A stretch of DNA of 33,634 nucleotides from an uncultured Croceitalea sp. (lineage in GTDB: Bacteria > Bacteroidota > Bacteroidia > Flavobacteriales > Flavobacteriaceae). Both the position numbers and the translations under genes were made by a program. The stretch is from NCBI GenBank assembly GCA_937969515.1, contig CALBVX010000001.1, forward strand, positions 1-33,634. Direction: 5' to 3'. Under the pieces are notes generated by a model, which saw nothing but the letters and a program-made list of their open reading frames with translations, did not search any database and had not been told where the DNA came from. Positions 3,266 through 32,194 of the stretch are shown here, one piece after another (position 1 is the first letter of the stretch; every line of letters begins with the position of its first letter).

Positions 3266-4378
3266 ATGAAATATCACACAAGAAAAAAAGCACTTATATT
3301 ATTACAGGACGGGACTATTTTTTATGGGAAAGCCGTAGGAGATAGAGAAGGAACTGCATTTGGTGAAGTTTGTTTCAATACTGGTATGACAGGTTATCAA
3401 GAGATTTTTACAGATCCTTCATATTATGGACAGCTTATGGTGGCAACTAATGCGCATATTGGCAATTATGGAACACATGAAGATGAAATTGAATCAGATT
3501 CTATAAAAATTGCTGGTTTGATTGTCAAGAACTTCAGCTATAACTACTCTAGACCAAGCGCAAATGCTAGTTTGTTGGAATTTCTTGAAAAAAACGATTT
3601 ACTGGCAATCTCTGATGTTGACACTCGGGCCTTGGTGAGTTACATTAGAGACAACGGTGCGATGAATGCGGTTATTTCTACAAGGGTTGACGATATTGAA
3701 GCTTTAAAAGCAGAATTAAAAGAAGTGCCAAGTATGAAAGGTTTAGAGCTGGCCTCTAAAGTTTCAACTAAAGAACCTTACATCTATGGTGATGAGAATG
3801 CAAAGTATAAGATTTCTGCTTTGGATATTGGTATCAAGAAGAATATTCTTCGAAACCTGGCAAAACGCGGTGCATGTGTGAAAGTTTTTCCATTCGATAC
3901 TTCTAAAGAAGAAATGACTGCTTGGAACCCCGATGCATACTTTATCTCGAACGGACCAGGTGATCCTGAGCCTTTAACTGAAGCTATTGAAACTACCAAG
4001 GCCCTGTTGGAATTGGATAAGCCTTTATTTGGTATTTGTCTAGGGCATCAGGTATTGGCACTTGCAAACGGAGTTTCTACCTATAAAATGCATAATGGAC
4101 ATAGAGGTATAAACCACCCTATTTTAAATCTGATGACGGGTAAAGGTGAAATTACATCTCAGAACCATGGCTTTGCTATTAATAGAGAAGAGGCTGAAGC
4201 AAATGGTGATCTAGAGATTACACATACCCATCTAAATGATTACACGGTAGCCGGACTAAAGTTGAAGGGTAAAAATGTATTTTCTGTTCAGTACCATCCA
4301 GAAGCAAGTCCTGGGCCGCATGATGCAGATTATCTTTTTGATCAATTTTTCGATGCCATAAAAACAAGTGCTAACTAA
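3266..4378 (+). CDS. carA: carbamoyl-phosphate synthase small (glutaminase) subunit
   Basis: CarA hydrolyses glutamine and passes ammonia to CarB to make carbamoyl phosphate for pyrimidines and arginine. The N-terminal domain has the typical LLQDGTIFYGKAVG and FNTGMTGYQEI. The C-terminal class I amidotransferase domain has the nucleophile in GICLGHQ (Cys258) and the His/Glu pair in YHPEAS (His344, Glu346). I chose ATG 3266 (370 residues); an in-frame TTG at 3245 would add seven unconserved residues and lies against the rplQ terminator. No carB is in the window, so the two subunits are encoded apart. Confidence 0.96.
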   Translation: MKYHTRKKALILLQDGTIFYGKAVGDREGTAFGEVCFNTGMTGYQEIFTDPSYYGQLMVATNAHIGNYGTHEDEIESDSIKIAGLIVKNFSYNYSRPSANASLLEFLEKNDLLAISDVDTRALVSYIRDNGAMNAVISTRVDDIEALKAELKEVPSMKGLELASKVSTKEPYIYGDENAKYKISALDIGIKKNILRNLAKRGACVKVFPFDTSKEEMTAWNPDAYFISNGPGDPEPLTEAIETTKALLELDKPLFGICLGHQVLALANGVSTYKMHNGHRGINHPILNLMTGKGEITSQNHGFAINREEAEANGDLEITHTHLNDYTVAGLKLKGKNVFSVQYHPEASPGPHDADYLFDQFFDAIKTSAN

Positions 4379-4471
4379 AACGTTGTAGTTTATTTTTAGG
4401 TTATTATCAGGTAGTTATGTAGTTTTCTTTAAGGCTAAAAGAGCGTCCTTTCGTATCTTCGTTCTTCTTAA

Positions 4472-5788
<1,317 letters not shown>

Positions 5789-5820
5789 AATTATTTCTAT
5801 AGTGTAAAAATTGAATCATA

Positions 5821-5850
5821 GCCTTTCTTCTTTTAGAAAGGCTTTTTTTT
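5821..5850 (+). terminator. intrinsic terminator after eno
   Basis: The stem GCCTTTCT / AGAAAGGC (8 bp, perfect) with loop TCTTTT is followed by eight T. It separates eno from the glycogen-synthase-like gene. Confidence 0.9.
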
Positions 5851-5903
5851 GAACTATAGATAATGTATATTATGCTTCGAGACCAACTAATTATAGAAAG
5901 GAT

Positions 5904-7439
5904 ATGAATAGTTTTCTTTTTGCAGCAGCTGAGAACGATGGTATAGCCAATTGCAAAGCTGGCGGAATGGGAGATGTAGTAAGAGATGTTCCCAGACAAA
6001 TCTCTGAAAAAGGAGATAAGGCCCATGTGGTTGTTCCTTCTTATGGTAGGTTACACCAACAAGGGGTCTTAAAGACCAAGTTGAACTTTTCGCTTCGCGG
6101 GATGGTTTATACTGCTGATTTGTATGAGGTTAAACCGAAAAAAGAGTATCCAAATGTCTATCATTATGTTGTTCACCATCCCGAAATAGAGGCGGGGGGT
6201 ATTGCACATATTTATCATGATGACCCCGAAGAGCCTTTTTATACAGATGCTATTAAATATTTTATTTTTTGTACTGCGGTAGCCGAAGCTATAAAAAAAG
6301 GGGCCTTCGGTAAATTAGATATTGTTCACCTTCACGATTGGCATTCTAGTTTATTGCTTTTTCTTAGAGAATATCATAGAGGTTATGAGAATCTTAGAAA
6401 AATAAGATTTGTCTATAGTATTCATAACCTAGCGATACAAGGTATCCGCCCTTTTGAAGATAATTATTCTTCTTTACGAAATTGGTTTCCTGATATTCCT
6501 TTTGATGAAAAAGGCCTTATTGATTACAGGTATCAAGATTGTATTAATTTAATGGCAGTAGGCATCCGTTTGGCAGATGCCGTTCATACAGTGTCTCCCT
6601 CCTACAAAGAAGATGTAATGAAGCCAAGTTCACCACCAGAATTTATCGGAGGTGAGGGCTTAGAGAAAGATTTGCAACAGGCCGATAAAGAAAATAGACT
6701 TTTTGGTATTCTTAACGGCTGTAATTACAAGAATATTAATGTCGAAGAAAAAGGCCAAATCTATCGAAATACGGTTAAGGCCCTTTTTAGCTGGCTTCAA
6801 GAAGAGTCAAAAAAATATAAAGCTGATTTTTTGGCCCATACCGGGGAGAAAATTATGCAATATGTAGATAACGAACCAAAGTTTATTGTTTCGAGTGTAG
6901 CTCGATTAACGGAACAAAAATTCTATTTTTTTAAACGTTCTCCGGAGGCTTTCGTTGCTATCTTAAAAAAGCTAGAGAAAATAGATGGTATTTTTATCCT
7001 TCTTGGAACTGGAGCCCCAGAATATGAAGAACTATTTAGGGATATCAGTTACAAGCACAAGAACTTCATTTTCACAAACGGACAATCGGAGAATTTGATT
7101 GATTCTATGTATTTAGAATCTAATCTCTACTTTATGCCAAGCCTTTTTGAGCCATGCGGAATCAGTCAAATGCTCTCCATGCGAAACGGAAATCCCTGTT
7201 TGGTTCACCATACGGGCGGACTTATAGATACCGTTAAGCATATGAAAACAGGTTTTGGTTTTGATGGGGACTCTTATGACCAAAAGATTAAAAATATGCT
7301 TTCCACTTTTGATATTGCGTTGGATATTTTTGTAAACGATAAACCAACATGGAAAAAGATTCAAACTAACGCTAAGAAAGCACGATTCACGTGGCAAAAA
7401 TCAGTAGATGAATATTATAAGGTTCTTTATAAAATGTAA
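5904..7439 (+). CDS. glgA: glycogen/starch synthase-like GT5 glycosyltransferase
   Basis: Seen: a 511-residue protein with the N-terminal nucleotide-sugar motif KAGGMGD (Lys18-), HLHDWHSSL, IHNLAIQG, a C-terminal Rossmann segment with ARLTEQK (Arg334, Lys339), the acceptor/donor motif SLFEPCG (Glu416) and HTGGLIDTV. These fit family GT5, which adds ADP- or UDP-glucose to an alpha-1,4-glucan. Odd points: the usual TxQKG reads TEQKF, and no glgC, glgB or glgP is nearby. The gene is alone between two terminator-bounded core genes. The synthase call is fair; the substrate is uncertain, so the gene symbol is provisional. Confidence 0.75.
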   Translation: MNSFLFAAAENDGIANCKAGGMGDVVRDVPRQISEKGDKAHVVVPSYGRLHQQGVLKTKLNFSLRGMVYTADLYEVKPKKEYPNVYHYVVHHPEIEAGGIAHIYHDDPEEPFYTDAIKYFIFCTAVAEAIKKGAFGKLDIVHLHDWHSSLLLFLREYHRGYENLRKIRFVYSIHNLAIQGIRPFEDNYSSLRNWFPDIPFDEKGLIDYRYQDCINLMAVGIRLADAVHTVSPSYKEDVMKPSSPPEFIGGEGLEKDLQQADKENRLFGILNGCNYKNINVEEKGQIYRNTVKALFSWLQEESKKYKADFLAHTGEKIMQYVDNEPKFIVSSVARLTEQKFYFFKRSPEAFVAILKKLEKIDGIFILLGTGAPEYEELFRDISYKHKNFIFTNGQSENLIDSMYLESNLYFMPSLFEPCGISQMLSMRNGNPCLVHHTGGLIDTVKHMKTGFGFDGDSYDQKIKNMLSTFDIALDIFVNDKPTWKKIQTNAKKARFTWQKSVDEYYKVLYKM

Positions 7440-7492
7440 ACCTATTTTCTTACTTCAAGTATTGTTAAGAATTCTCCAAAATTGAAGGGCAT

Positions 7493-7525
7493 TATTGTTA
7501 AAACCTTTCCTTTTTCGTAATTTTA
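7493..7525 (+). promoter_or_regulatory. candidate Bacteroidota-type promoter for gltA
   Basis: TATTG at 7493-7497 and TAATTTTA at 7518-7525 are 20 bases apart, close to the Bacteroidota -33/-7 pattern (TTG, 19-21 bases, TAnnTTTG). The last G of the -7 box is replaced by A. The distance to the gltA ATG is 32 bases. Confidence 0.35.
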
Positions 7526-7557
7526 ACAGCTTATCATAATAACTATAAATCATTTAA

Positions 7558-8841
7558 ATGTCGGACAAAGCAACACTTGAATTTGAAGGAAAAAAGTATG
7601 AATTCCCGGTTATAAAGGGAACGGAAGATGAGTTGGCAATCGATATTAAAACTTTGAGGGGAACTAGCGGAATCGTTACCATTGACCCAGGTTACAAAAA
7701 CACAGGCTCTTGTGAAAGTGCAATTACTTTTTTAGATGGTGAAAAAGGAATTTTACGTTACCGCGGGTACTCAATTGAAGAACTTGCCGAAAAGGCTGAT
7801 TTTCTTGAGGTGGCCTACCTTTTGATTTTTGGAGAGCTGCCAAACAAAGAGCAGTTGGCTGCCTTTCATTTAGATATTAAGAACGAATCTCATGTAGATG
7901 AGGAAATGAAAAAGATTTTGGACGGTTTTCCAAAGTCTGCTCATCCAATGGGTGTATTATCTTCACTTACGAGTGCCTTAGTGGCATTTAACCCTGGTTC
8001 GGTCGATGTGGCTTCCAGCGATGCTATGTACAATTCCATTGTGCGTATTCTGGCCAAGTTTCCGGTATTGGTTGCTTGGGCTATGCGCAAGAAAATGGGA
8101 CTCCCTTTAGATTATGGGGACGATTCTTTAGGTTACGTTGAGAACATTCATAAAATGATGTTCAAAAGACCGAATCAAGAATATAAAAGAAATAGAGTGG
8201 TTATTGATGCGTTGGATAAGTTACTTATTCTACATGCTGACCACGAACAAAACTGTTCTACATCGACCGTGCGAATAGTTGGTTCTTCTCATGCGGGATT
8301 ATTTGCTTCCCTTTCTGCCGGTATTTCGGCATTGTGGGGCCCATTGCATGGTGGTGCAAACCAAGCCGTATTAGAAATGTTAGAAGCTATTGAGGCCGAT
8401 GGCGGTGATACCAAAAAATATATGGCCAAAGCCAAGGATAAATCAGATTCTTTTAGGTTAATGGGCTTTGGGCATAGGGTCTACAAAAATTTTGACCCAA
8501 GGGCAAAGATTATCAAGAAGGCCGCTGATGAAGTTTTAGGGGATTTGGGCATTAACGACCCTATTTTAGATATCGCCAAAGGACTAGAGAAAGAGGCGCT
8601 TGAAGACGAGTACTTTGTAAAAAGAAAGCTTTATCCAAATGTAGATTTTTATTCGGGCATTATTTATCGTTCGCTGGGCATACCTACGGATATGTTCACG
8701 GTAATGTTCGCTTTAGGAAGATTGCCGGGGTGGATAGCACAATGGAGAGAGATGCGTCTGCGTAATGAGCCTATTGGTAGACCAAGGCAAATTTATGTAG
8801 GTGAAAACTACCGCCCTTTTGTTGGCGTTGACAAGAGGTAG
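7558..8841 (+). CDS. gltA: citrate synthase (type I)
   Basis: Citrate synthase condenses acetyl-CoA with oxaloacetate at the entry of the TCA cycle. The 427 residues match the hexameric type I enzymes. The catalytic residues line up almost exactly with E. coli: His264 in GPLHGGANQ, His306 in GFGHRVYK and Asp363 in NVDFYSG. His229 lies in HADHEQNCSTST. The N-terminal extension (about 1-40) found in NADH-regulated type I enzymes is present. It has its own likely promoter and a downstream terminator, so it is a single transcription unit. Confidence 0.98.
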   Translation: MSDKATLEFEGKKYEFPVIKGTEDELAIDIKTLRGTSGIVTIDPGYKNTGSCESAITFLDGEKGILRYRGYSIEELAEKADFLEVAYLLIFGELPNKEQLAAFHLDIKNESHVDEEMKKILDGFPKSAHPMGVLSSLTSALVAFNPGSVDVASSDAMYNSIVRILAKFPVLVAWAMRKKMGLPLDYGDDSLGYVENIHKMMFKRPNQEYKRNRVVIDALDKLLILHADHEQNCSTSTVRIVGSSHAGLFASLSAGISALWGPLHGGANQAVLEMLEAIEADGGDTKKYMAKAKDKSDSFRLMGFGHRVYKNFDPRAKIIKKAADEVLGDLGINDPILDIAKGLEKEALEDEYFVKRKLYPNVDFYSGIIYRSLGIPTDMFTVMFALGRLPGWIAQWREMRLRNEPIGRPRQIYVGENYRPFVGVDKR

Positions 8842-8866
8842 ATTGCTACCTTAATAAAAACAATAA

Positions 8867-8897
8867 AGCTCTTTTATCTAATAAAAGGGCTTTTTTT
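8867..8897 (+). terminator. intrinsic terminator after gltA
   Basis: An 11-bp stem (AGCTCTTTTAT / ATAAAAGGGCT, one G-U pair) closes a 3-base loop and runs into seven T. It lies 25 bases after the gltA stop. Confidence 0.88.
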
Positions 8898-8935
8898 ATA
8901 CCAAAAAACGAGTTTATTTTATAAAAATTTTTCAA

Positions 8936-9850
8936 ATGCTTCAGTTGAACATTAACAATGAAACTTCGCCTTTAAAAGCTGTGGTGCTTGGTACTGCTGA
9001 AAGTTGTGGCCCAACACCAATACCTGAGGAAGCCTATGACCCTAAGTCTTTAGAGCATATTCTCGCTGGAACTTATCCTACAGAAGCTGATATGATTGAA
9101 GAAATGGAAGCCTTTGCGAAAGTATTTGAGAAGTATGGTGTAAAGGTTTATAGGCCATCTGTTTTACACGATTGTAATCAGATATTCTCTAGAGACATCG
9201 CTTTTGTAATTGGTGATAAATTGGTGCATGCCAATATTCTGCCCGATAGGGAAAAAGAGTTTCAAGCGATACAGCATGTAATAAGTGAAATAAAGCCAGA
9301 AAATATCATATATCCTCCTGAAGAAGTGCATATAGAGGGAGGGGATGTGATGCCTTGGAACGATTATATCTTTGTAGGCACGTATACCGGTTCAGATTAT
9401 CCTGATTATATAACGGCCCGAACAAATAAAGAAGCAATAGAATTTTTAAAAAAACAATTCCCAAACAAAACTGTAAAGTCTTTTGAACTAAGAAAATCCA
9501 ATACGAATGCCAAAGAAAACGCTTTGCATTTAGACTGTTGTTTTCAGCCTATCGGAAAAGATAAGGCCATTCTTCATAAAAATGGATTTTTGGTTGAAGA
9601 AGAGTATCAATGGCTTGTAAATTATTTTGGAACAGAAAATATATTTGAAATAACGGCTGAAGAAATGTATCAAATGTTTAGCAATGTATTTTCAATATCA
9701 CCTGAAGTTGTAGTTTCCGAACGTAACTTTACTAGACTAAACAACTGGCTTAGAGGTCAAGGTTTTACCGTAGAGGAAATCCCCTATGCTGAGATTGCCA
9801 AACAAGAGGGGCTTTTACGATGCAGTACCTTGCCCTTAATTCGCGAATAA
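8936..9850 (+). CDS. arginine deiminase-superfamily (dimethylargininase/amidinotransferase-like) protein
   Basis: The 304-residue protein has the landmarks of the pentein-fold guanidine-modifying enzymes: FSRDIAFV (Asp87), HIEGGDVMPW (Glu134, Asp137), ALHLDCC (His198) and a C-terminal catalytic cysteine in LRCSTLP (Cys296). Members hydrolyse or transfer the guanidino group of arginine, methylarginine, citrulline or agmatine. No signal peptide is seen, so it is cytosolic. The exact substrate cannot be read from sequence; dimethylarginine dimethylaminohydrolase-like is the usual label. It is 15 bases before ctlX and almost certainly co-transcribed. Its position after gltA fits my memory of other flavobacterial genomes. 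Confidence 0.8.
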   Translation: MLQLNINNETSPLKAVVLGTAESCGPTPIPEEAYDPKSLEHILAGTYPTEADMIEEMEAFAKVFEKYGVKVYRPSVLHDCNQIFSRDIAFVIGDKLVHANILPDREKEFQAIQHVISEIKPENIIYPPEEVHIEGGDVMPWNDYIFVGTYTGSDYPDYITARTNKEAIEFLKKQFPNKTVKSFELRKSNTNAKENALHLDCCFQPIGKDKAILHKNGFLVEEEYQWLVNYFGTENIFEITAEEMYQMFSNVFSISPEVVVSERNFTRLNNWLRGQGFTVEEIPYAEIAKQEGLLRCSTLPLIRE

Positions 9851-9865
9851 AGAAAAAGTATTTAA

Positions 9866-10795
9866 ATGCAGATTACCAATACCATCCTAATGATTCGCCC
9901 TGTGGCTTTTCGTATGAACGAGCAGACGGCCGTAAATAATTATTTTCAAGAAGAAATAGACATAAAGAATCAAACGATCAACACAAGAGCTCAAAAAGAG
10001 TTTGACGACTTTGTAAGTGTTTTGCGCGATAGAGGAGTAAATGTAATCGTTGTTGATGATCGAAAAGAAACCGATACCCCAGATTCTATTTTTCCGAACA
10101 ATTGGGTTTCATTTCATGCTAACGGTACGGTAGTGGTTTACCCCATGTTTGCTGAAAATCGCAGAAAAGAAAGACGCGAAGATGTTTTTGACATTCTTGA
10201 AGAAAAAGGCTTTCGAATAGACAATATAGTCGATTATACTTCAGCCGAGAAAGAAGGCGTTTTTCTAGAAGGTACCGGCAGTATTTTAAAGGATAGGGTT
10301 AATCAAAAGGCCTACTGTGCACTTTCAGAAAGGGCACATGAAGAATTGTTCATCGAGTTTTGCGAAGATTTTGATTGTTTTCCGGTCATATTTACTGCCA
10401 ATCAAACTGTAGATGGTCAGCGATTGCCAATTTACCACACCAATGTAATGATGGCAATGGCAGAGACTTTCGCCGTTATTTGTTTGGATACCATAGATGA
10501 TAAAAAGGAACGTAAAAACGTTACCGAACATCTAAAAAAAGATGGTAAAGAGATTATTACTATTACGGAAAAACAAATGCACCATTTCGCTGGCAATATG
10601 CTGCAGGTATATGGTGCGAAAGACAAACGCTTTATGGTCATGAGCTCAGCGGCATACCACAGTTTGCGCGAAGATCAAATAAGTGCTATTAAAAAGCATT
10701 GCGATATCATACACAGTTCTTTAGAAACTATAGAAACCTGTGGGGGTGGTTCGGCGCGCTGTATGATGGCTGAGGTGTTTTTGCCTAAAGCTTAG
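9866..10795 (+). CDS. ctlX: CtlX-type citrulline utilization hydrolase
   Basis: The 309-residue protein opens with the CtlX-like stretch NTILMIRPVAFRMNEQTAVN. Further conserved features are IFPNNWVSFH (75-84), FLEGTGS (133-139), IYHTNVMM (His191) and the C-terminal GGGSARCMMAE with the presumed nucleophile Cys299. CtlX proteins are pentein-fold enzymes, annotated from a role in citrulline use in another bacterium; their biochemistry here is inferred. It is cytosolic and follows a second enzyme of the same fold. Its stop overlaps the stop of the convergent gene by 4 bases and no terminator is visible between them. Confidence 0.85.
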   Translation: MQITNTILMIRPVAFRMNEQTAVNNYFQEEIDIKNQTINTRAQKEFDDFVSVLRDRGVNVIVVDDRKETDTPDSIFPNNWVSFHANGTVVVYPMFAENRRKERREDVFDILEEKGFRIDNIVDYTSAEKEGVFLEGTGSILKDRVNQKAYCALSERAHEELFIEFCEDFDCFPVIFTANQTVDGQRLPIYHTNVMMAMAETFAVICLDTIDDKKERKNVTEHLKKDGKEIITITEKQMHHFAGNMLQVYGAKDKRFMVMSSAAYHSLREDQISAIKKHCDIIHSSLETIETCGGGSARCMMAEVFLPKA

Positions 10796-12291
10796 TCTGA
10801 TTCTGTAACTGTAAACTCTCTAATGGCCTGGTTGGGTTCCATAATGTTGTAACCTTTCCAAAATTCAGGGTCATACTTTGCCATATAGGTCGCCTTGATA
10901 CTTTTATCTTCTTTAAAACTATCAAACTGGTTTTGGTCGATAATGGTATTGTCAAAAATTACGAGTTCCCATTTATTGGTATTGGTCATTCTAAAATCAA
11001 TATTTAAACGTAGTTCATTTTGTTTGTTTCTACCTTTAACATGCTTGTTTTTTTCTATGACATCTAGCGGTCTATCAAATCTAAACCAACGTCCAAAACT
11101 AAAATCCACAAATTTCAAGTCATACTTGTTATTGGAGAGTTTCGTAAAGTGCATTGAACCTTTATATAGTATTTCCCTATAAAAAATACCTAATAACCTG
11201 AAGTTTCTTAGGTTCTTAAGATTTTCAAAGTCAATTCGCATGATGGCAAAATCTTCAATATTAACAAAGATTCTTCCTTTAAAGTCTGCACCGCCCTTTG
11301 GTTTAAAATCGATTACATAAACTCCAGCGTTGTCAATATCGGCATATCCGGCAAGTTCGAATTCATACTTCCTACTTTTGTTTATGACATTTAGTTTGGT
11401 ATCTTCTTCGTAAAAGACCTCACCTAAGAGTTCGTCAAAAATGTGTTTTTGTCCATCTACAAAGCCTGAGACGGTGTCTTTCTTCATTTCTTTTTCGAGT
11501 TCTTTGGCCTCTTCGGCTTCTAAATCACTCATAATAGAATCTACCTGTATTTTTTCACTGAAGATTCCTGATTTTATTTTTAAATAGGAATCAGGCTTAA
11601 CGTTTTGTTTGAAGATATTCTCCATACGCTTACCCAATTCATCAAAAGAGCCGATATCTTTTTTATCATAAAGATTGGCTGCTTTTAAGACATTCACTTT
11701 ATAGTCTTTTGTAGTCTTGTAGAAATCACCGAGAGCTTCCGTGTAGTGATATGAATTTCTAGGGATTATACTTGCAAGGCTATCGATAAACTCCTTGTCT
11801 AGCTCTTCAATAGAGGATTTTTCAAATCCGAAATCAACTTTTTGGATGTTCCCAAAAACCGACTGTCTCAAGAAATAACGTTGTTTTATGGGGTCATTAT
11901 TTGTGTTCTGAGGTAAACGCTCTTTCATTTTGTCAATAATCTCATCAACCTCTAATTCTTTATCGAATAGGTATACTCCGCTAAGTTCAATAGCTTTTGG
12001 TTGTATGTAAATAACACTATCTAATAGGCTTTCATAGGTAAAACCCAATTTTTCATAGCCCATACTAGAGATATAGATAGAATCAAGTTTTTGCGTGGTA
12101 GCATCTAATACAAAACTAAATCTGCCTTCTTCATTAGAAATTACACCTTGGTTTTCGCCATACTGAATGGTTACATATGGAATAGGGTTTTTGGTTTTAC
12201 CATCGACTACTTTTGATGAAATAGTTTGTGCTAGGCTAGATGAAACAACAGATAGGCAAAGTAATAGTGTAAGCGTGTAATATGATTTCAT
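10792..12291 (-). CDS. secreted CarboxypepD_reg-like domain protein
   Basis: From ATG 12291 the 499-residue protein starts with a clear signal peptide (MKSYYTLTLLLCLSVVSSSLAQ). An in-frame ATG at 12321 would add ten residues ahead of it and is less likely. Residues about 23-100 form a CarboxypepD_reg-like beta-sandwich (VDGKTKNPIPYVTIQ ... SNEEGRFSF), the module also found at the N-terminus of TonB receptors. The rest has no motif I can name; it is beta-rich with an acidic/helical middle (around 230-280). It is probably periplasmic or attached to the outer membrane. It lies 84 bases after the SDR gene and may be the last gene of that operon. Function unknown. Confidence 0.7.
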   Translation of the reverse strand: MKSYYTLTLLLCLSVVSSSLAQTISSKVVDGKTKNPIPYVTIQYGENQGVISNEEGRFSFVLDATTQKLDSIYISSMGYEKLGFTYESLLDSVIYIQPKAIELSGVYLFDKELEVDEIIDKMKERLPQNTNNDPIKQRYFLRQSVFGNIQKVDFGFEKSSIEELDKEFIDSLASIIPRNSYHYTEALGDFYKTTKDYKVNVLKAANLYDKKDIGSFDELGKRMENIFKQNVKPDSYLKIKSGIFSEKIQVDSIMSDLEAEEAKELEKEMKKDTVSGFVDGQKHIFDELLGEVFYEEDTKLNVINKSRKYEFELAGYADIDNAGVYVIDFKPKGGADFKGRIFVNIEDFAIMRIDFENLKNLRNFRLLGIFYREILYKGSMHFTKLSNNKYDLKFVDFSFGRWFRFDRPLDVIEKNKHVKGRNKQNELRLNIDFRMTNTNKWELVIFDNTIIDQNQFDSFKEDKSIKATYMAKYDPEFWKGYNIMEPNQAIREFTVTESD

Positions 12292-12375
12292 GTAAATTGG
12301 TTTTTTGATAAAGTGATGCATATAGATAAAGACGTTTTTTGATTGGGAATGGTTGCTTCAAAAGTCGAGCCAAGA

Positions 12376-13800
12376 TTATTTTTTGGCAATATTTCTGATC
12401 ATACCGCCAAAAATAAAATAATGCAAAGGCACTATACTATACCAGTATAACCTACCTTTTAGGCCACGTGGACGAAAAGTGGCAGTTTGATGCAACACAT
12501 TGTCTTCGTCAATTTTAAATTCTAGCCAAGCTTCGCCAGGTAGTCTCATCTCGGCAAAAAGCAATAAACGTTTTCCTTTTTTGTCAGCTAAAAGAACACG
12601 CCAGAAGTCAAGGGCATCTCCAGCAAAAATTTTATCAGGATGTGTTCTTCCCCTTCTAAGTCCAACACCACCGAAAAGTTTATCTAAAAACCCTCGAATT
12701 TTCCAGAGCCAGTTGCCATAATACCAACCTGTTTTGCCTCCTATCTTCCAAATTCTTTTTAACACCCTTTTTGGGTCGTCTACTTTTAGTTTTTGTTCAT
12801 CCCTAAGCACCCCAAACTTGGGAACCTGAACATACTTTTCAAGATTCTTATTAAAACGACCGCTGACCATGCTGTCTTTCCAACTACTCATAACAAGATT
12901 CTGCTCAATTTTTTTAAAGGCCATGTCAATAGCTTCTATGTAGGAATGTGGCGTAATATCTAACAGCTCAGAAAGTCTATTGTCGTTTGCAATGACCTCA
13001 ATTTTCATGCTATCGACTAGGTTTAGCGCCAATTTATATGAGGTTGAGGTAACAAAATATAACCAGTATGAGGATAGTTTTGGTGTCATTACCGGTACGG
13101 TGACTATCCAATTTTTGAAACCTCTTGCCTTGGCGTATTGATGGAGCATTTCTTTGTAAGTAAGCACATCTGGCCCCGCAATGTCAAATGATTCATTATA
13201 GGTCTCTGAATTCCCTAGTACTCCCGTTAAAAACGCAATGACATCGCGAATAGCTATAGGCTGCGTTTTGGTCAAAACCCATTTTGGGGTAATCATAAAC
13301 GGAAGTTTTTCGCATAGATCTCGTATAATTTCAAACGAAGAACTACCAGAACCCACAATAATTCCGGCACGTAAAACGGTAAGGCTAAAATTGCCTTTGT
13401 ATAAAATCTCTTCTACATTTTTTCGAGACCAAAGATGTTTAGAAAGATTTTTGTCATTGACAATGCCACTTAAATAAATAACCTGTTTAATGTTGGTGTC
13501 TTTTACCAGGGCATTGAAATTTTTAGCGGTAATAGCCTCCATCTCATCAAAATCTTTGGTTGATGAGGTCATGGAGTGTATTAGGAAATAGGCAGCATCA
13601 ATATCCTTCGGAATTTTTCCTTCCGAAACATCATCTAAAAAATCAATTTCTAAAACCTTGATCTTAGCCAGGGTTTCTTGGTCTACCGATAAACGTGAGG
13701 CGTCTCTAACGGTGCAGACAACATCGTGGCCAGCATCAAGCAATTGCGGAAGCAATCGCATACCGATATAACCATTGGCACCTGTAAGCAGAATCTTCAT
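12376..13800 (-). CDS. SDR-type NAD(P)-binding protein with DUF2867-like C-terminal domain
   Basis: The 474-residue protein begins with a Rossmann glycine motif (LLTGANGYIGMRLLPQLL, residues 4-21) of an atypical short-chain dehydrogenase/epimerase, with YFLIHSM near residue 71 and VIYLSG near 126. The C-terminal third (about 330-470), with GGKTGWYYGNWLW and DALDFWRV, resembles DUF2867. Such two-domain proteins are common in Bacteroidota and actinobacteria; their substrate is unknown. There is no signal peptide. The ATG overlaps the stop of the DUF1648 gene (ATGA), so they are translationally coupled. Confidence 0.8.
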   Translation of the reverse strand: MKILLTGANGYIGMRLLPQLLDAGHDVVCTVRDASRLSVDQETLAKIKVLEIDFLDDVSEGKIPKDIDAAYFLIHSMTSSTKDFDEMEAITAKNFNALVKDTNIKQVIYLSGIVNDKNLSKHLWSRKNVEEILYKGNFSLTVLRAGIIVGSGSSSFEIIRDLCEKLPFMITPKWVLTKTQPIAIRDVIAFLTGVLGNSETYNESFDIAGPDVLTYKEMLHQYAKARGFKNWIVTVPVMTPKLSSYWLYFVTSTSYKLALNLVDSMKIEVIANDNRLSELLDITPHSYIEAIDMAFKKIEQNLVMSSWKDSMVSGRFNKNLEKYVQVPKFGVLRDEQKLKVDDPKRVLKRIWKIGGKTGWYYGNWLWKIRGFLDKLFGGVGLRRGRTHPDKIFAGDALDFWRVLLADKKGKRLLLFAEMRLPGEAWLEFKIDEDNVLHQTATFRPRGLKGRLYWYSIVPLHYFIFGGMIRNIAKK

Positions 13801-14309
13801 GATTTGGGAACTTTGAACATTTTAAAAATGGATATAAAGGGGCCTAAGGTTATTGCCAATAACAAAACAATTATGACCCAGCCAATGCTAAAATGATTTA
13901 CTTCTTTTGCCATTAGTATAGCATTAAGTGAAATCACCAGAAAAATTAATGCAATGCCAAGATTGAGCCAGGTTAACATTCGAATACTTATTGCATAGAT
14001 CTTTGACGCGTTTTTCTCGGTTACCTTGGTGGGGTAATTAAAGTTCCATGGCTTCATTTTAGTAGCGAGCATAGTCATTCCAAAATACATTACTAGATTT
14101 AGAATGGGCAGTACCCAAAGTGTTGATTTATTTCCAAACCCGTCAGCTTCACCTTTTATATTAAAATGGGTAGGAATAACCTCTGGCAAGCTAGAATAAA
14201 AAGAAAAAACCAAAATAAAATTGAGCGCGACCAGAAGCCAACCTGCTAAAATTAGTTTTCGGTCAAAATCATTAGGTTCTACATCAATTTTTGGATGGTT
14301 CTTAAACAT
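13797..14309 (-). CDS. DUF1648 membrane protein
   Basis: The 170-residue protein has about four hydrophobic helices (near residues 24-42, 68-85, 105-127 and 140-162). Between the first two is LPEVIPTHFNIKGEADGFG, the hallmark of DUF1648, a domain shared with SdpI-type immunity and signalling membrane proteins. A role in toxin resistance cannot be claimed from this alone; the single-domain form is widespread and uncharacterised. It is coupled by 1-base and 4-base overlaps to its neighbours on both sides. Confidence 0.8.
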   Translation of the reverse strand: MFKNHPKIDVEPNDFDRKLILAGWLLVALNFILVFSFYSSLPEVIPTHFNIKGEADGFGNKSTLWVLPILNLVMYFGMTMLATKMKPWNFNYPTKVTEKNASKIYAISIRMLTWLNLGIALIFLVISLNAILMAKEVNHFSIGWVIIVLLLAITLGPFISIFKMFKVPKS

Positions 14310-14734
14310 TATAAATCTTCAATTGAAGTGGGGGCATTGTCTGCCTTATAGTCCAATAATTTTCTAAAATATTTTTGAATGGCCTTGGTATCTGATTGTA
14401 CCTTGATAAAATAATGATCTCGATAAATAGAATATACGGCAAAATCACCTTTATAGATGGTTAATTTATAATACGGAATTACCAATGCATACGTTTCAAG
14501 TAATGATCTAAAACGAACGATAATACCCTTAGGTCGCATTTCTACATTACATGAGTTTCTGTTGTTATCTAGTATCAAAAGGTTCTGTATTTCAACACTG
14601 GTTTCTTTAATGAAAAGCTTTGGAGAACCAATTCCTCCTAGTTTTAGACGTTCTTTTAGGTTAAAGGGTTTGCCCACTTCATCATCAACCTTTTTGGTTA
14701 TTTTCTTATCGTTGTATGAAACATTTAGTAACAT
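14309..14734 (-). CDS. small cytosolic protein of unknown function
   Basis: I do not recognise this 141-residue protein. It has no signal peptide or membrane helix. The middle (about residues 60-110) alternates hydrophobic and polar residues in a beta pattern (GIIVRFRSLLETYALVIPYYKL, IYRDHYFIKV), and the C-terminus is a short amphipathic helix (TKAIQKYFRKLLDYK). It may be a PH-like or sensor-type small beta-barrel, but that is only an impression. It is first in the minus-strand operon; its stop shares one base with the ATG of the DUF1648 gene. It diverges from argS. Confidence 0.65.
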   Translation of the reverse strand: MLLNVSYNDKKITKKVDDEVGKPFNLKERLKLGGIGSPKLFIKETSVEIQNLLILDNNRNSCNVEMRPKGIIVRFRSLLETYALVIPYYKLTIYKGDFAVYSIYRDHYFIKVQSDTKAIQKYFRKLLDYKADNAPTSIEDL

Positions 14735-28432: not shown

Positions 28433-29887
28433 ATGAAAAAAAGAGAATTCTTAAAAAAGTCCGGTTTATTTGCAGCTTCTACTGCCGTTATTCCTGCAGT
28501 GACGTTTTCTTGCAAAGAAAAAGAAAAGAAAACCATTTTAAAAGCGAAAGAACGCATACGTACTGCCCATATTGGCGTCGGAAATATGGGTGCTGAGGAT
28601 TTACGGGATATTTCATCGCATGCTAAAGTTGATGTGGTCGCCTTGTGCGATGTTGATTCCAATAAACTGAAAGAAGCCGCAGAAAAGCATCCTAATGCTA
28701 AGTTATATGCCGATTACCGAAAAATGCTTAGTGAAATGGCCGATGAGATTGATGCGGTCATTATTTCTACCCCAGACCATACCCATGCACCCGCTTCTTT
28801 AATGGCAATGAATTTAGACAAACCTGTGTATTGCCAAAAACCCTTAACGCACCACGTTTCCGAGGCTAGACAAATGCGAAAATTGGCCAAAGAGAAGAAT
28901 TTGGTGACGCAGATGGGGATACAGGTACATTCGTTTTACGATTATAAGTTGGCAACACTATTGATCCAGTCTGGAATTATTGGTAAAGTGCATACCGTTC
29001 ATGCCTGGTCGCCTAAAAATTGGGGATATGATGGCCCCGCTCCAGAAGGGAATGACCCTGTTCCAGAAAATCTGGATTGGAACCTTTGGTTAGGCACTTC
29101 GGCAGAACGTCCGTATAAGAATGATATTTACCACCCTGGTAATTGGCGAAAATTAGTGGACTATGGTTGTGGTACTTTAGGGGATATGGGGGTTCATATT
29201 TTTGACACGCCCTACAATGCCTTGGCATTGGATGTACCTAAGACCATAACCAATAATTGTAGGGAACCCAATGGATTTGGTTTCCCCGAAAATAATGTGG
29301 TAACATACCAATTTCCGGGCACCAAATATACCACGGATGAATTTAAATGGATTTGGTATGATGGCCCTGGGGCGCCAGAAAACCATGAAGATTTGGTGTT
29401 GCCCAATGCGGTCGCAAGTGCAGAAAGTAGCCCCCAAGAAGATGAATCCATGGAAGATAAAATAGCCTTGAACGCTAAAGTTGCAGAAGAAGGAAAATTG
29501 CCCGATCAAGGCGCCATGTTTGTGGGTGAAAAAGGGCGCTTGTTATTGCCCCATTTTATGCAATTACCTATGAAAATTGTTGATGGAGAATATGTGGATA
29601 TCTCAGCAGAAATCGCAGCTGTTGAAAAGGCTAATAATATGGGGGCACCTATCCGTGATTATGCATCTGAAGGGCCGAAACATTACCACCAATTTATAGA
29701 TGCCTGTTTAGGAAAAGATGAGGTTACCGCTCCTTTTTCGTATGCCGCTCGGTTAACAGAAACCATACTCTTAGGGGTCATTGCAGGGCGTTTCCCTAAC
29801 AAAACCTTGCATTGGAATAACGAAACAGCAAAGTTTGATGAAGAGGAGGCAAACCAATATTTAGATTCCCCGTATCGTGAGTTTTAA
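28433..29887 (+). CDS. exported Gfo/Idh/MocA-family oxidoreductase
   Basis: The 484-residue protein has a Rossmann NAD(P) motif (HIGVGNMGAEDL, about residues 46-57), DVVALCDVD, STPDHTHA and the family lysine in YCQKPLTH, where the more common EKP reads QKP, as in many Bacteroidota and Planctomycetota members. The N-terminus is export-like: MKKREFLKKSGLFAAS is a Tat-like motif with KR instead of RR, followed by a possible lipobox VTFSC (Cys27). A Tat route would carry the folded, cofactor-loaded enzyme to the periplasm. It probably oxidises glycosides at C3 for the DUF1080 enzyme. The cofactor and substrate are inferred. Confidence 0.87.
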   Translation: MKKREFLKKSGLFAASTAVIPAVTFSCKEKEKKTILKAKERIRTAHIGVGNMGAEDLRDISSHAKVDVVALCDVDSNKLKEAAEKHPNAKLYADYRKMLSEMADEIDAVIISTPDHTHAPASLMAMNLDKPVYCQKPLTHHVSEARQMRKLAKEKNLVTQMGIQVHSFYDYKLATLLIQSGIIGKVHTVHAWSPKNWGYDGPAPEGNDPVPENLDWNLWLGTSAERPYKNDIYHPGNWRKLVDYGCGTLGDMGVHIFDTPYNALALDVPKTITNNCREPNGFGFPENNVVTYQFPGTKYTTDEFKWIWYDGPGAPENHEDLVLPNAVASAESSPQEDESMEDKIALNAKVAEEGKLPDQGAMFVGEKGRLLLPHFMQLPMKIVDGEYVDISAEIAAVEKANNMGAPIRDYASEGPKHYHQFIDACLGKDEVTAPFSYAARLTETILLGVIAGRFPNKTLHWNNETAKFDEEEANQYLDSPYREF

Positions 29888-29916: not shown

Positions 29917-30017
29917 TATATGCTAAAGCTTAATTAAATTAGTTACTCATATAAAATATATATGATCAATAATCATATTCGCTTGTTGTGCTTCATTAAG
30001 ACAAACCAAAATAAACA

Positions 30018-30791
30018 ATGATAAAATTCTTTCGAAAAATCAGGCAAACGCTACTCTCCGAAAACAAATTCAGTAAATATCTAATTTATGCAATTGGAGA
30101 AATTATTCTAGTGGTTGTTGGAATTTTAATTGCTCTTCAGATAAACAACAGTAACCAAAATCGTATCAATACAATTGCCGAAAAGGACACCTTAGCAAGT
30201 TTAAAACAAGACTTGAATTCAGCGTTGTTCCAATTAGAATCTAAAATTGAGCAAAATAATTTACACAGGACTTCAGATTCCTTAGCCCTAGAGACTATAC
30301 ACAGGAAAACTATTCCAACTGATAGTATTCCAAAATTGCTGCTTACACATATTTACACACCAACATTTGATCCAGAATTAGGAACCTTGAAAGAAATTTT
30401 GAATACTGGTAAAATGGCAATTATAAAGAGTGAACAACTTAGAAATCATATTTCTTCTTGGAACAAGTATATGGATGAACTAGATGAAGTAGATAATCGA
30501 TTAATTTATCTAGATGATAATATTAAAACTCCTTTATATTCCAAGCATTTACCTTATCGTAATTCATTAAGTATTGTTATTAATCCAAGTACGAATGACC
30601 TTTTGAAAAGTAGATTTGAGAAATCCAATTTTGAAATAGACATAGAATCCTTTTTTTATACCTTAGAATTTGAGAATATGCTTAGTAATTACTATTTCTA
30701 TGGAACTCTCCAAAATACTAGATTGAATGATGTTAAAAATAAAATGTTAGAAATGATTACTATAATTGACAAGGTTCTAACTAATGATTGA
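30018..30791 (+). CDS. DUF6090 family protein
   Basis: The 257-residue protein starts with the DUF6090 hallmark: MIKFFRKIRQTLLSENK, then KYLIYAIGEIILVVVGILIALQINN, one membrane helix at about residues 22-42. The remaining 210 residues are helical, probably periplasmic, with possible coiled-coil segments. The family is found almost only in Bacteroidota, often in several copies, and has no known function. It is flanked by the REP-like element upstream and an attC-like element downstream. It is a single gene with no clear promoter. Confidence 0.85.
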   Translation: MIKFFRKIRQTLLSENKFSKYLIYAIGEIILVVVGILIALQINNSNQNRINTIAEKDTLASLKQDLNSALFQLESKIEQNNLHRTSDSLALETIHRKTIPTDSIPKLLLTHIYTPTFDPELGTLKEILNTGKMAIIKSEQLRNHISSWNKYMDELDEVDNRLIYLDDNIKTPLYSKHLPYRNSLSIVINPSTNDLLKSRFEKSNFEIDIESFFYTLEFENMLSNYYFYGTLQNTRLNDVKNKMLEMITIIDKVLTND

Positions 30792-30909
30792 ATCCTTAAT
30801 ACTTGTTTATAAATCCTTAAAATAAAATATAATTGAGATTTTTTAAATGGAAAAAGAGGCAAGGGGAATTGCTGGACGTTTTAAAGATGAATTATAAAAT
30901 TAACGAAAG

Positions 30910-30971
30910 CACAACAATGTACATGACGATCATGCTCCTAACGTCGCACGCCGCATGTACTCAACGTTGTG
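30910..30971. repeat. attC-like imperfect palindrome
   Basis: Outer arms CACAAC (30910-30915) and GTTGTG (30966-30971) pair perfectly. Inner arms GTACATG (30919-30925) and CATGTAC (30954-30960) also pair perfectly. They are separated by an asymmetric 3 x 5 internal loop, around a 28-base top. Two paired boxes per side with an asymmetric spacer is how an integron attC folds, but the outer right arm GTTGTGT departs from GTTRRRY. It ends 20 bases before the next gene. No integrase is in the window. Confidence 0.55.
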
Positions 30972-30991
30972 TTTAATTATCAAAAACAAAA

Positions 30992-31891
30992 GTGCTTAAA
31001 CTTAATCACAAGCTAAATCAGGGAAAAAATCAGCTTTTTGGGCAATTCAAACTCCCATATTCACTCAATGGCCATTCGCACAATCGACCAAAATTAGTTG
31101 ACGAAAATGATACTAAAAAGGTTGAACATCTAATTGGGCATATTTTTATCGGATATCTCCGTCAAATTGAAAAAAAACAGATTTCGCACTTCTTCCCAAA
31201 CGACGATGATGGACATAAAAACCCTGACTTATTTCTAAGTACTGAGGGAAAACATATTGGAGTTCAGGTTACACAATTTGTGATTCGGGATTATCTAGCC
31301 AGATTTAATCAAGCAAAAAATATTTGTGAAAAGCTATCTGACTTTATAACTGAAAATTATAATCCTCCAATAAAAATTAACATTCAAATATGTACCCCAT
31401 GGGATAGTGATGCAATTCCACAAGGAAATATTAAAACCTATAAAAAACTAGCAAAGGTCATTGCAGAGAGCATTGAAAAAAATATTGAGCATTTAAAGTC
31501 AAAGAACGAATATTTGAATTTTGATTTAAACAAAAATGATTTTAAGAATATAGCTGAAAGCTACAATCTATATCCAGTACCAGAACGGTACAAATCAAAT
31601 TATTTTGGGAGAAATAATATTTTTATTGACTATGGGTTTGACTATGTATTAATTCATGAAGAGGACATAAAAGAAACTGCTGAAAAAATATATCAAAGCA
31701 AGAATGGAGGTAACTCGGAAATTCTAGTAATATGGGGAGATGAACTACATTTTCATAATACAACACCTAACATTATCACTGAATTAAAAAAAGTTTTTAA
31801 CGACACCAGCTTTAAATCAGTCTACTTTCTCGGACGCTATAACCTGAAAGACATTAAAGAAAAAAGATACAACTATCACAAAATAAAATAA
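30992..31891 (+). CDS. orphan accessory protein with PD-(D/E)xK-like core
   Basis: I do not recognise a named family. The 299-residue product starts with GTG at 30992; there is no early ATG. After a helix (VEHLIGHIFIGYLRQIE, about 44-60) comes KNPDLFLSTEGKHIGVQVTQF, which looks like the beta hairpin of PD-(D/E)xK nucleases with an E-x-T variant. The Asp would be residue 79, and the usual Glu is Gln92. The rest alternates helices and strands (CTPWDSD, IFIDYGFDYVLIHEED, EILVIWGDELHF). There is no signal or membrane helix, so it is cytosolic. It is visibly more AT-rich than its neighbours and lies between two related palindromes, like a mobile cassette. Confidence 0.6.
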   Translation: MLKLNHKLNQGKNQLFGQFKLPYSLNGHSHNRPKLVDENDTKKVEHLIGHIFIGYLRQIEKKQISHFFPNDDDGHKNPDLFLSTEGKHIGVQVTQFVIRDYLARFNQAKNICEKLSDFITENYNPPIKINIQICTPWDSDAIPQGNIKTYKKLAKVIAESIEKNIEHLKSKNEYLNFDLNKNDFKNIAESYNLYPVPERYKSNYFGRNNIFIDYGFDYVLIHEEDIKETAEKIYQSKNGGNSEILVIWGDELHFHNTTPNIITELKKVFNDTSFKSVYFLGRYNLKDIKEKRYNYHKIK

Positions 31892-31896
31892 CTACA

Positions 31897-31950
31897 CACA
31901 ACAACGGCTATAATTCATCAAGCCAGAGGCGTGACGAAATCACGGCCTGG
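31897..31950. repeat. half copy of the attC-like palindromic element
   Basis: CACAACAA at 31897-31904 repeats the left arm of the 30910 element and starts 5 bases after the stop of the orphan gene. It continues ACGGCTATAATTCAT and then an imperfect hairpin (31923-31950, CCAG...GTGA / TCAC...CTGG with CGAAA loop). No matching GTTGTG arm follows, so the element seems truncated next to the VOC remnant. Confidence 0.4.
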
Positions 31951-31979
31951 ATCGTTAAAAATCTAAATAGCTGAAGTAT

Positions 31980-32194
31980 TTATTTTACAAAAAGCTGGTT
32001 CATGTCCTTAAAAGCCTTAAACTCCAAGGCATTACCCGCTGGGTCTAAAAAGAACATAGTGGCTTGCTCTCCTACCTCCCTTTAAAACAAACATAAGGTT
32101 CAATAACGAATTTTACCCCTTTGGAAGTAAGTTCTTTTGATAAAGAAACAACAAATTTAAACTCCAACGCCGCGGCGCTCATACCTTTCAGAAA
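31980..32194 (-). pseudogene. frameshifted, N-terminally truncated VOC (glyoxalase-fold) gene
   Basis: Read on the minus strand, 32194 down to about 32080 gives [20 protein letters not shown], then a stop. The next frame continues [10 protein letters not shown] and [17 protein letters not shown], ending QLFVK and TAA at 31980. Joined by a single-base correction (deletion near 32077-32081), the two parts form the C-terminal half of a small VOC-superfamily protein, whose members carry [20 protein letters not shown]-like sequence. The expected N-terminal half is absent: an in-frame stop lies at 32195-32197. It is a dead remnant, probably left when the cassette region rearranged. Confidence 0.8.

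Follow-up and report, generated by a model that had tools for sequence, protein, structure and literature searches.

Positions 29985–31960 of the DNA analysed here (the window: 33,634 nucleotides, positions 1–33,634 of contig CALBVX010000001.1 in assembly GCA_937969515.1, from an uncultured Croceitalea sp., genome label G000) most probably form a short integron-type cassette array, with an attI-like site, two cassettes and no adjacent recombinase, that would work like an integron; the probability of this reading is put at about 0.87. At the level of sequence, comparison across genomes establishes the anatomy of the sites, the complementarity of the cassette ends, the preference for one strand in folding, the arrays themselves, the adjacency and orientation of the recombinase genes, and the presence of sister genomes without the cassettes. 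Each cassette consists of one gene and one attC-type site. A XerA-like tyrosine recombinase of about 375 residues presumably cuts at G^TT in the R' box, cassettes would leave as circles, and insertion, always in one orientation, may take place either at another attC or at a palindromic attI located next to the recombinase gene. The array in the window could have been moved by the recombinase encoded on contig C157 of the same genome or by one that has been lost. The predicted features are as follows.

28433–29887, + strand: GFO/IDH/MocA oxidoreductase gene (Pfam), left chromosomal flank; orthologues 89% (G003) and 86% (G001) identical
29960–29985, + strand: attI-like site, a near-palindrome (29960–29978), six bases and then the G of GTT (29985)
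29986–30966, + strand: cassette 1, crossover to crossover; R' box GTTGTGC (29985–29991) is the complement of R'' GCACAAC at 30909
30018–30791, + strand: DUF6090 gene, cargo of cassette 1 (Pfam PF19578, 27.5 bits, cut-off 23.5)
30909–30972, + strand: attC1, with R'' (30909–30915), L'' GTACATG, L' CATGTAC and R' (30966–30972), from its fold and covariance model R1 (24.6 bits)
30967–31954, + strand: cassette 2, crossover to crossover; start R' GTTGTGT (30966), whose exact complement is R'' ACACAAC at 31896
30992–31891, + strand: orphan gene P0001, 299 aa, cargo of cassette 2; GTG start at 30992, stop at 31891
31896–31960, + strand: attC2, partly decayed, with R'' (31896–31902), L'' GGCTAT, a degraded L' and R' GTTAAAA (31954–31960); R1 16.8 bits, E 0.036
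31980–32113 (about), − strand: remnant of a VOC-family gene, right chromosomal flank, from blastn matches to VOC genes of two plasmids and to the MocA-adjoining stretch in G003 and G001

In array order, the DUF6090 gene is followed by attC1 and the orphan gene by attC2. The preliminary description had recognised a single cassette, formed by the orphan gene between two palindromes, and no integrase. The orphan gene is indeed a cassette gene, but the DUF6090 cassette had been missed and the array starts at an attI-like site; likewise, the window contains no recombinase gene, none beside the attI-like site, but the genome does encode a recombinase, on C157, with its own attI and cassette. The tight placement of the orphan gene between the elements was confirmed, its start codon lying 19 bases past attC1 and its stop 4 bases before attC2, and the layout of a mobile gene cassette proposed for it is supported by the cassette-end rule, the recurrence of the sites and the cassette-less sister genomes, all described below. 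The attI-like site shares 30 of 33 bases with the attI that follows the recombinase gene in Arenibacter hampyeongensis (L268), the distance to the GTT being, by eye, equal; the assumption that the left end of the array was a random chromosomal site was dropped when this comparison revealed the palindrome there. The start of cassette 1, GTTGTGCTTCATTAAGAC, resembles the starts of many cassettes elsewhere, and homologues of the DUF6090 gene are found in many of the fetched array loci. At one locus (L117, G004:C9:605000-624900), 14 rows of DUF6090 matches fall within about 11 kb (3378–14472) on one strand, which looks like a series of paralogous cassette genes. In the window, a short open frame was seen by eye in the interval from the DUF6090 gene to attC1 (30847–30897, MEKEARGIAGRFKDEL), perhaps the tail of an older cassette gene.

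The orphan gene P0001 has, besides itself, one relative in 395 genomes of the order, which is 61% identical and also a cassette gene in an array; no relative was found on viral contigs, and no family scored above cut-off in Pfam and NCBIfam. Its best PADLOC match (PDC-M02B, 14.8 bits, E 0.0027) was taken as chance, and a single-sequence structure model of the protein (mean pLDDT 34) was useless.

The genome itself is 54% complete. As read by eye, contig C157 (L188) carries the recombinase gene together with an attI-like site in divergent arrangement and a cassette gene; it also has an attC that runs into the contig end, so that only its first part is present, and the R'' of this attC (AGCTAAC) is complementary to the GTTAGCT with which the cassette begins; five further sites lie on other contigs. 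In another genome of the same genus (G007), the attI of a recombinase is occupied by a DUF6090 cassette that begins almost like the one in the window, the protein being 97% identical over the 32 residues to the contig end. The preliminary description proposed to look for empty sites in sister strains, and two sister genomes lack the cassettes at this place. The MocA gene is present in five other genomes of the genus, and in two of them (G003 and G001) it adjoins the VOC stretch with no cassettes between, the exact pre-insertion bases not being alignable; in G005, G004 and G002 the neighbour of MocA differs, and no match to the right flank of the window follows it. In the same-genus loci L124 (G003) and L043 (G001), sites stop at an identical GTTCGAGTCAATTCACCTGCG, perhaps a common array end.

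As to the present state of the array, the chances are slightly better than even that it is a passive relic, its recombinase having been deleted or the array having been carried by homologous recombination, which is compatible with the origin proposed above. The attI-like site without a neighbouring recombinase, the decayed attC2 and the right-flank VOC gene, a remnant in which no open frame of 80 aa is listed, would all agree with such a relic, whereas attC1 looks intact and the only recombinase gene of the genome matched here is an open frame of 378 aa without stops.

With regard to an integron-type origin, the AAC…GTT core, the R''/R' and L''/L' boxes and the asymmetric spacers of attC sites are present in the window, in attC2 only partly because of its degraded L'. 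The arms of attC1 read GCACAAC / AAT / GTACATG … CATGTAC / TCAAC / GTTGTGT; the attC-like element with two paired boxes per arm and an asymmetric spacer, noticed earlier at 30910, is thus seen at 30909–30972, with spacers of 3 and 5 bases. As also noticed, the second element begins like the first, with ACACAACAA at 31896 and the R'' ACACAAC. In its 5' half this element looks like a typical member of the family, but the right L box is degraded, with CACGGCC in place of the CATAGCC of the family, and R and L therefore pair poorly. Integron attC sites have the consensus R boxes RYYYAAC and GTTRRRY. The boxes GCACAAC and GTTGTGT of the window, already described as departing from the attC consensus, each do so at one position, and among 166 sites (those covered by the 25 commonest R', out of 175) GTTRRRY fits 11 (GTTGGGC 5, GTTAGGC 3, GTTGGGT 2, GTTGAGT 1).

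Taken by itself, the window gives weak evidence for the two hairpins. Within it, CACAACAACG at one mismatch has 2 matches against 1.27 expected; the fold of attC1 has a z of about −1.4 on either strand, which by itself is not unusual, and the z values of the attC2 stretch (−2.95 and −2.43) are due to an inner hairpin rather than to R and L. The pattern check suggested earlier, run as CACAAC-N(40–70)-GTTGTG, gave 5 places per strand against 4 in the reversed control and was uninformative because the two boxes of a site, R'' and R', are parts of different cassettes. The exact pattern CACAACAA-N(30–60)-TTGTTGTG was not found in the whole genome, ACAACAACGGCTAT at two mismatches gave 32 matches against 54 in the control, and Rfam gave no match. 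It is the site family, known from sequence comparison, that makes the observation real.

Covariance model R1 was built from 17 sites of other genomes, with the window sites excluded; its E-values are rough. In a scan of the window it ranked exactly 30909–30972 first (E 3.6e-4) and 31896–31960 second, the third match scoring 11.1 bits, and the two palindromes around the gene are indeed related. The palindromes recur elsewhere: at E ≤ 0.01, R1 sites are present in 67 of 98 genomes, the own genome counted, and at E ≤ 1e-5 in 60 of 296 genomes drawn over the phylum, some of them outside the class. These counts are lower bounds because the first look of the genome search loses weak sites; in the own genome, it missed the window sites that the full window scan recovered. 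One relative (L066–L069) contains 70 R1 sites in 70.5 kb, all on the same strand. The 19-mer TAACGAAAGCACAACAATG with up to two mismatches had 57 matches in 28 of the 98 genomes, several of them on one strand of one contig, against 9 matches for the reversed pattern.

Since the site scanner needs an exact L stem, this stem was tested separately on sites picked by their 5' sequence alone. An exact complementary L' followed by GTT was present in 34 of 52 sites, compared with a mean of 1.1 and a maximum of 6 in 200 rounds with shuffled boxes, and with 4 of 784 when boxes of other sites were used. An exact L' is lacking in the remaining 18, among them G000:C133:1686; this own-genome site (L121, about 1686), located behind a DUF6090 gene, has a typical left half and no matching L' box. 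Of 188 sites, 174 have the more stable fold on the bottom strand and 13 on the top strand, whereas the corresponding numbers for random stretches, which were drawn from the same loci and may overlap sites, were 69 and 108 of 188. The window sites divide in this respect: attC1 folds better on the bottom strand (−12.5 versus −10.0), and attC2, contrary to the family bias, on the top strand (−10.3 versus −8.1). On inspection by eye, two mismatches recur, one behind L'' (A opposite C) and the other of the form CAT/ACG, and single unpaired bases differ between sites; also by eye, where the top strand has recurrent A.C mismatches the bottom strand has G.T pairs, and the observed bias would follow from this.

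In integrons, crossover falls between the G and the TT of R'. The bases that follow the G are therefore part of the cassette that comes next, and the expected partner of R'' is the beginning of its own cassette, not the R' of its own site. In cassettes of other genomes, R'' fully matched the start of the same cassette in 136 of 161 cases and the own site in 11 of 161 (shuffles: mean 12.9, maximum 24 in 1000); the rule was broken by 25 cassettes, and an earlier, overlapping set gave 104 of 131. Both cassettes of the window obey it, the start GTTGTGC corresponding to the R'' GCACAAC and the start GTTGTGT to ACACAAC. Among the 136 cassettes, complementarity extends beyond the 7-base R box, with fractions of 0.99, 0.97 and 0.71 for the first three positions past it, 0.00 for the fourth (none of the 136) and 0.85, 0.90 and 0.70 thereafter. 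The sequences of the cassette ends thus agree with crossover at G^TT and with a circular intermediate.

A profile made from seven recombinases gave, at E ≤ 1e-60, 64 matches in 56 of the 98 genomes, one of them in the own genome (G000:C157); some genomes carry two recombinases of this profile. Adjacency was tested for 58 of the 64, with up to 5 kb on each side (one in G055, three in G057 and those of G025 and G050, with partial or broken frames, were omitted), and for 107 of 110 sites (three with E 0.022 to 0.046 in L216, L209 and L196 were omitted). Sites were found beside the recombinase in 37 of the 58 loci, 31 times downstream on the same strand, six times upstream in divergent arrangement and never in the other two arrangements. 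No site was found at the other 21; in 16 of these, the contig stops on one side at a distance of up to about 1.1 kb. In L197, L145, L206, L210, L211, L214, L241, L207, L237, L239, L243 and others, the recombinase gene is at most a few hundred bases away from the end of its contig; with so many genes in such positions, arrays seem to break assemblies and are probably undercounted.

The same arrangement is seen in a second collection of at least 80 listed loci from named taxa (Winogradskyella, Aquimarina, Maribacter, Arenibacter, Gillisia, Salegentibacter, Aequorivita and others), some of which overlap with the earlier set. All 165 sites in 80 of the loci listed lie on the strand of the recombinase, 160 downstream and five upstream (three in L256, two in L271), and among those listed with at least 800 nt downstream, 45 of 52 have sites. 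Recombinases of Prolixibacteraceae (L301), Ekhidna (L305) and Flammeovirgaceae (L315) had no site in those three stretches. The layouts follow the recombinase tree with 2 changes, a number as low being reached in 0 of 500 shuffles; the divergent layout occurs in two clades, one with the own-genome recombinase, which was labelled divergent from the reading of contig C157 and not from a model match. A palindrome followed by GTT is present within 80 nt of the recombinase stop in 41 of the 72 named loci listed with 80 nt there, and in 0 of 231 random stretches, drawn from the same loci with possible overlap as in the folding control. In the divergent clades, similar attI-like sites were seen by eye before the recombinase start. 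From these palindromes, the predicted attI adjoins the recombinase gene.

The best NCBIfam match of the recombinases is NF040815 (recomb_XerA_Arch), the cut-off of which (220) was passed by all four tested (223.5, 226, 229.8 and 230.5 bits); three of these adjoin arrays and the fourth (L151) does not. Sequence comparison with the PDB gives XerC/A-like proteins and VchIntIA as their best relatives. The residues that we take to be catalytic are invariant in 14 aligned recombinases, 13 of which possess an N-terminal region about 105 residues long, though several proteins in the set of 58 are shorter. The array-side recombinases lack the insertion of about 43 residues found in integron integrases. 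The spacing from KGxKxR to HxLRH is 64–65 in 53 of the 58 (four are without the motif and in one it was found elsewhere) and about 107 in VchIntIA (2a3v, counted on the alignment), and the gap region of the profile alignment spans 61 residues of 2a3v (180–240) against 18 in these recombinases. With TIGR02249 (IntI), no protein scored over the cut-off in 98 genomes, large-array genomes among them; at E ≤ 1e-30 the profile matched in 34 of the 98, the best stretch extending only to about position 180 of 315, and gave no match in the own genome. Judged by the IntI-specific domain, the defining feature of IntI, the predicted system is not a member of the IntI family, and the insertion-less recombinases beside arrays, together with the lack of an IntI over cut-off, bear out the earlier suspicion that another recombination system may be at work.

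It is accordingly improbable that the array is a fragment of an ordinary integron, the cassettes of which were moved by a canonical IntI-type integrase and the attC sites of which have merely diverged. Such a fragment would share the R''/R' logic, the hairpin on the bottom strand and the boundary at G^TT; published papers list integrons or intI for Bacteroidota/Bacteroidetes, and the model of the Winogradskyella aurantiaca recombinase (mean pLDDT 83) superimposes on VchIntIA with a Z of 21.9 and an rmsd of 2.9 over 267 of 317 residues (XerA: Z 24.3, rmsd 14.6, 261 aligned). The results with TIGR02249 and the missing insertion argue against it, as do the attC models. The first classical model (R2) had only 3 base pairs, so R3 was built with hand-set pairs from 11 class 1 attC sites and is narrower than the model of IntegronFinder. 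R3 found 18 sites, its 11 training sites included, on six plasmid stretches; up to E 10, neither R2 nor R3 found anything in the window or in L066–L069 with its 70 R1 sites, and R1, up to E 1, found nothing in the six plasmid stretches. At the sensitivity of these small models, the two classes of sites do not see each other. Less credible still is an origin of the palindromes as dispersed repeats of a MITE-like, REP-like or terminator-hairpin kind that spread between genes by copying, without cassette recombination: hairpins at gene ends in many copies would suit this, and a strong hairpin might also end transcription, but the variable bases of R'' match the far cassette end and not the own hairpin arm (136 versus 11 of 161), which a copied hairpin would not produce, and the sites keep one orientation away from the recombinase.

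A section of PMC2426708 selects integrases by the additional domain, which would leave out insertion-less recombinases, and lists intI for the Bacteroidetes/Chlorobi group. An excerpt of PMC9024848 refers to an earlier study with Bacteroidetes integrases only without cassettes, and to one complete integron in Salinibacter ruber; the passage of PMC8352920 on attC models names 11 taxa, Bacteroidetes not among them. The literature search, with subscription papers and preprints outside its scope, found no description of such arrays in Flavobacteriaceae. On balance, we lean slightly towards a second integron lineage in the Bacteroidota, in which a Xer-like recombinase without the IntI-specific helix would recognise folded single-stranded attC in another way (longer R arm, G.T/A.C mismatches, N-terminal region) and insert at a palindromic attI, and which may have been missed since surveys select by the absent domain and with attC models trained on other sites. 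Messier and Roy are said to have described the IntI insertion in 2001 as essential for integron function. A passage of PMC8138268 likewise calls it essential, and this claim becomes testable with insertion-less recombinases beside arrays of attC-like hairpins. A large cassette pool (70 sites in one stretch) is moreover invisible to a class 1-type attC model, and its cargo can be rare and uncharacterised, like P0001.

Among known systems, XerA-like recombinases (NF040815) share the above-cut-off match and the lack of the insertion. The housekeeping role of Xer is the resolution of chromosome dimers; unlike such a resolver, the genes described here adjoin attI and cassette arrays, and some genomes have two. 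In Treponema integrons, according to the part of PMC3607928 on gene direction, the integrase is transcribed towards attI and in the same direction as the cassettes, as in 31 of the loci above; the enzyme is reported there as intI, whereas none of the recombinases described here scores over the IntI cut-off. Compared with integrons in general, the recombinase is without the IntI insertion and in most cases longer by about 105 residues at the N-terminus, the R' boxes are mostly not GTTRRRY, complementarity of the ends extends past the R box of 7 bases, the positions where extrahelical bases are expected show, by eye, A.C mismatches (G.T on the bottom strand), and attI is a palindrome. A CALIN is defined by at least two attC within 4 kb and no integrase nearby, which is what the window contains, with two sites 923 nt apart, one of them degraded, and the sole recombinase match of the genome on C157. 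Shared with chromosomal integrons and CALINs are the one-gene cassettes in one orientation, the G^TT boundary, arrays of tens of cassettes, integrase-less clusters, attC hairpins with R and L boxes, an unpaired spacer and a variable tip (compare the relevant part of PMC2727003), the better folding of the bottom strand and the location of attI beside a tyrosine recombinase.
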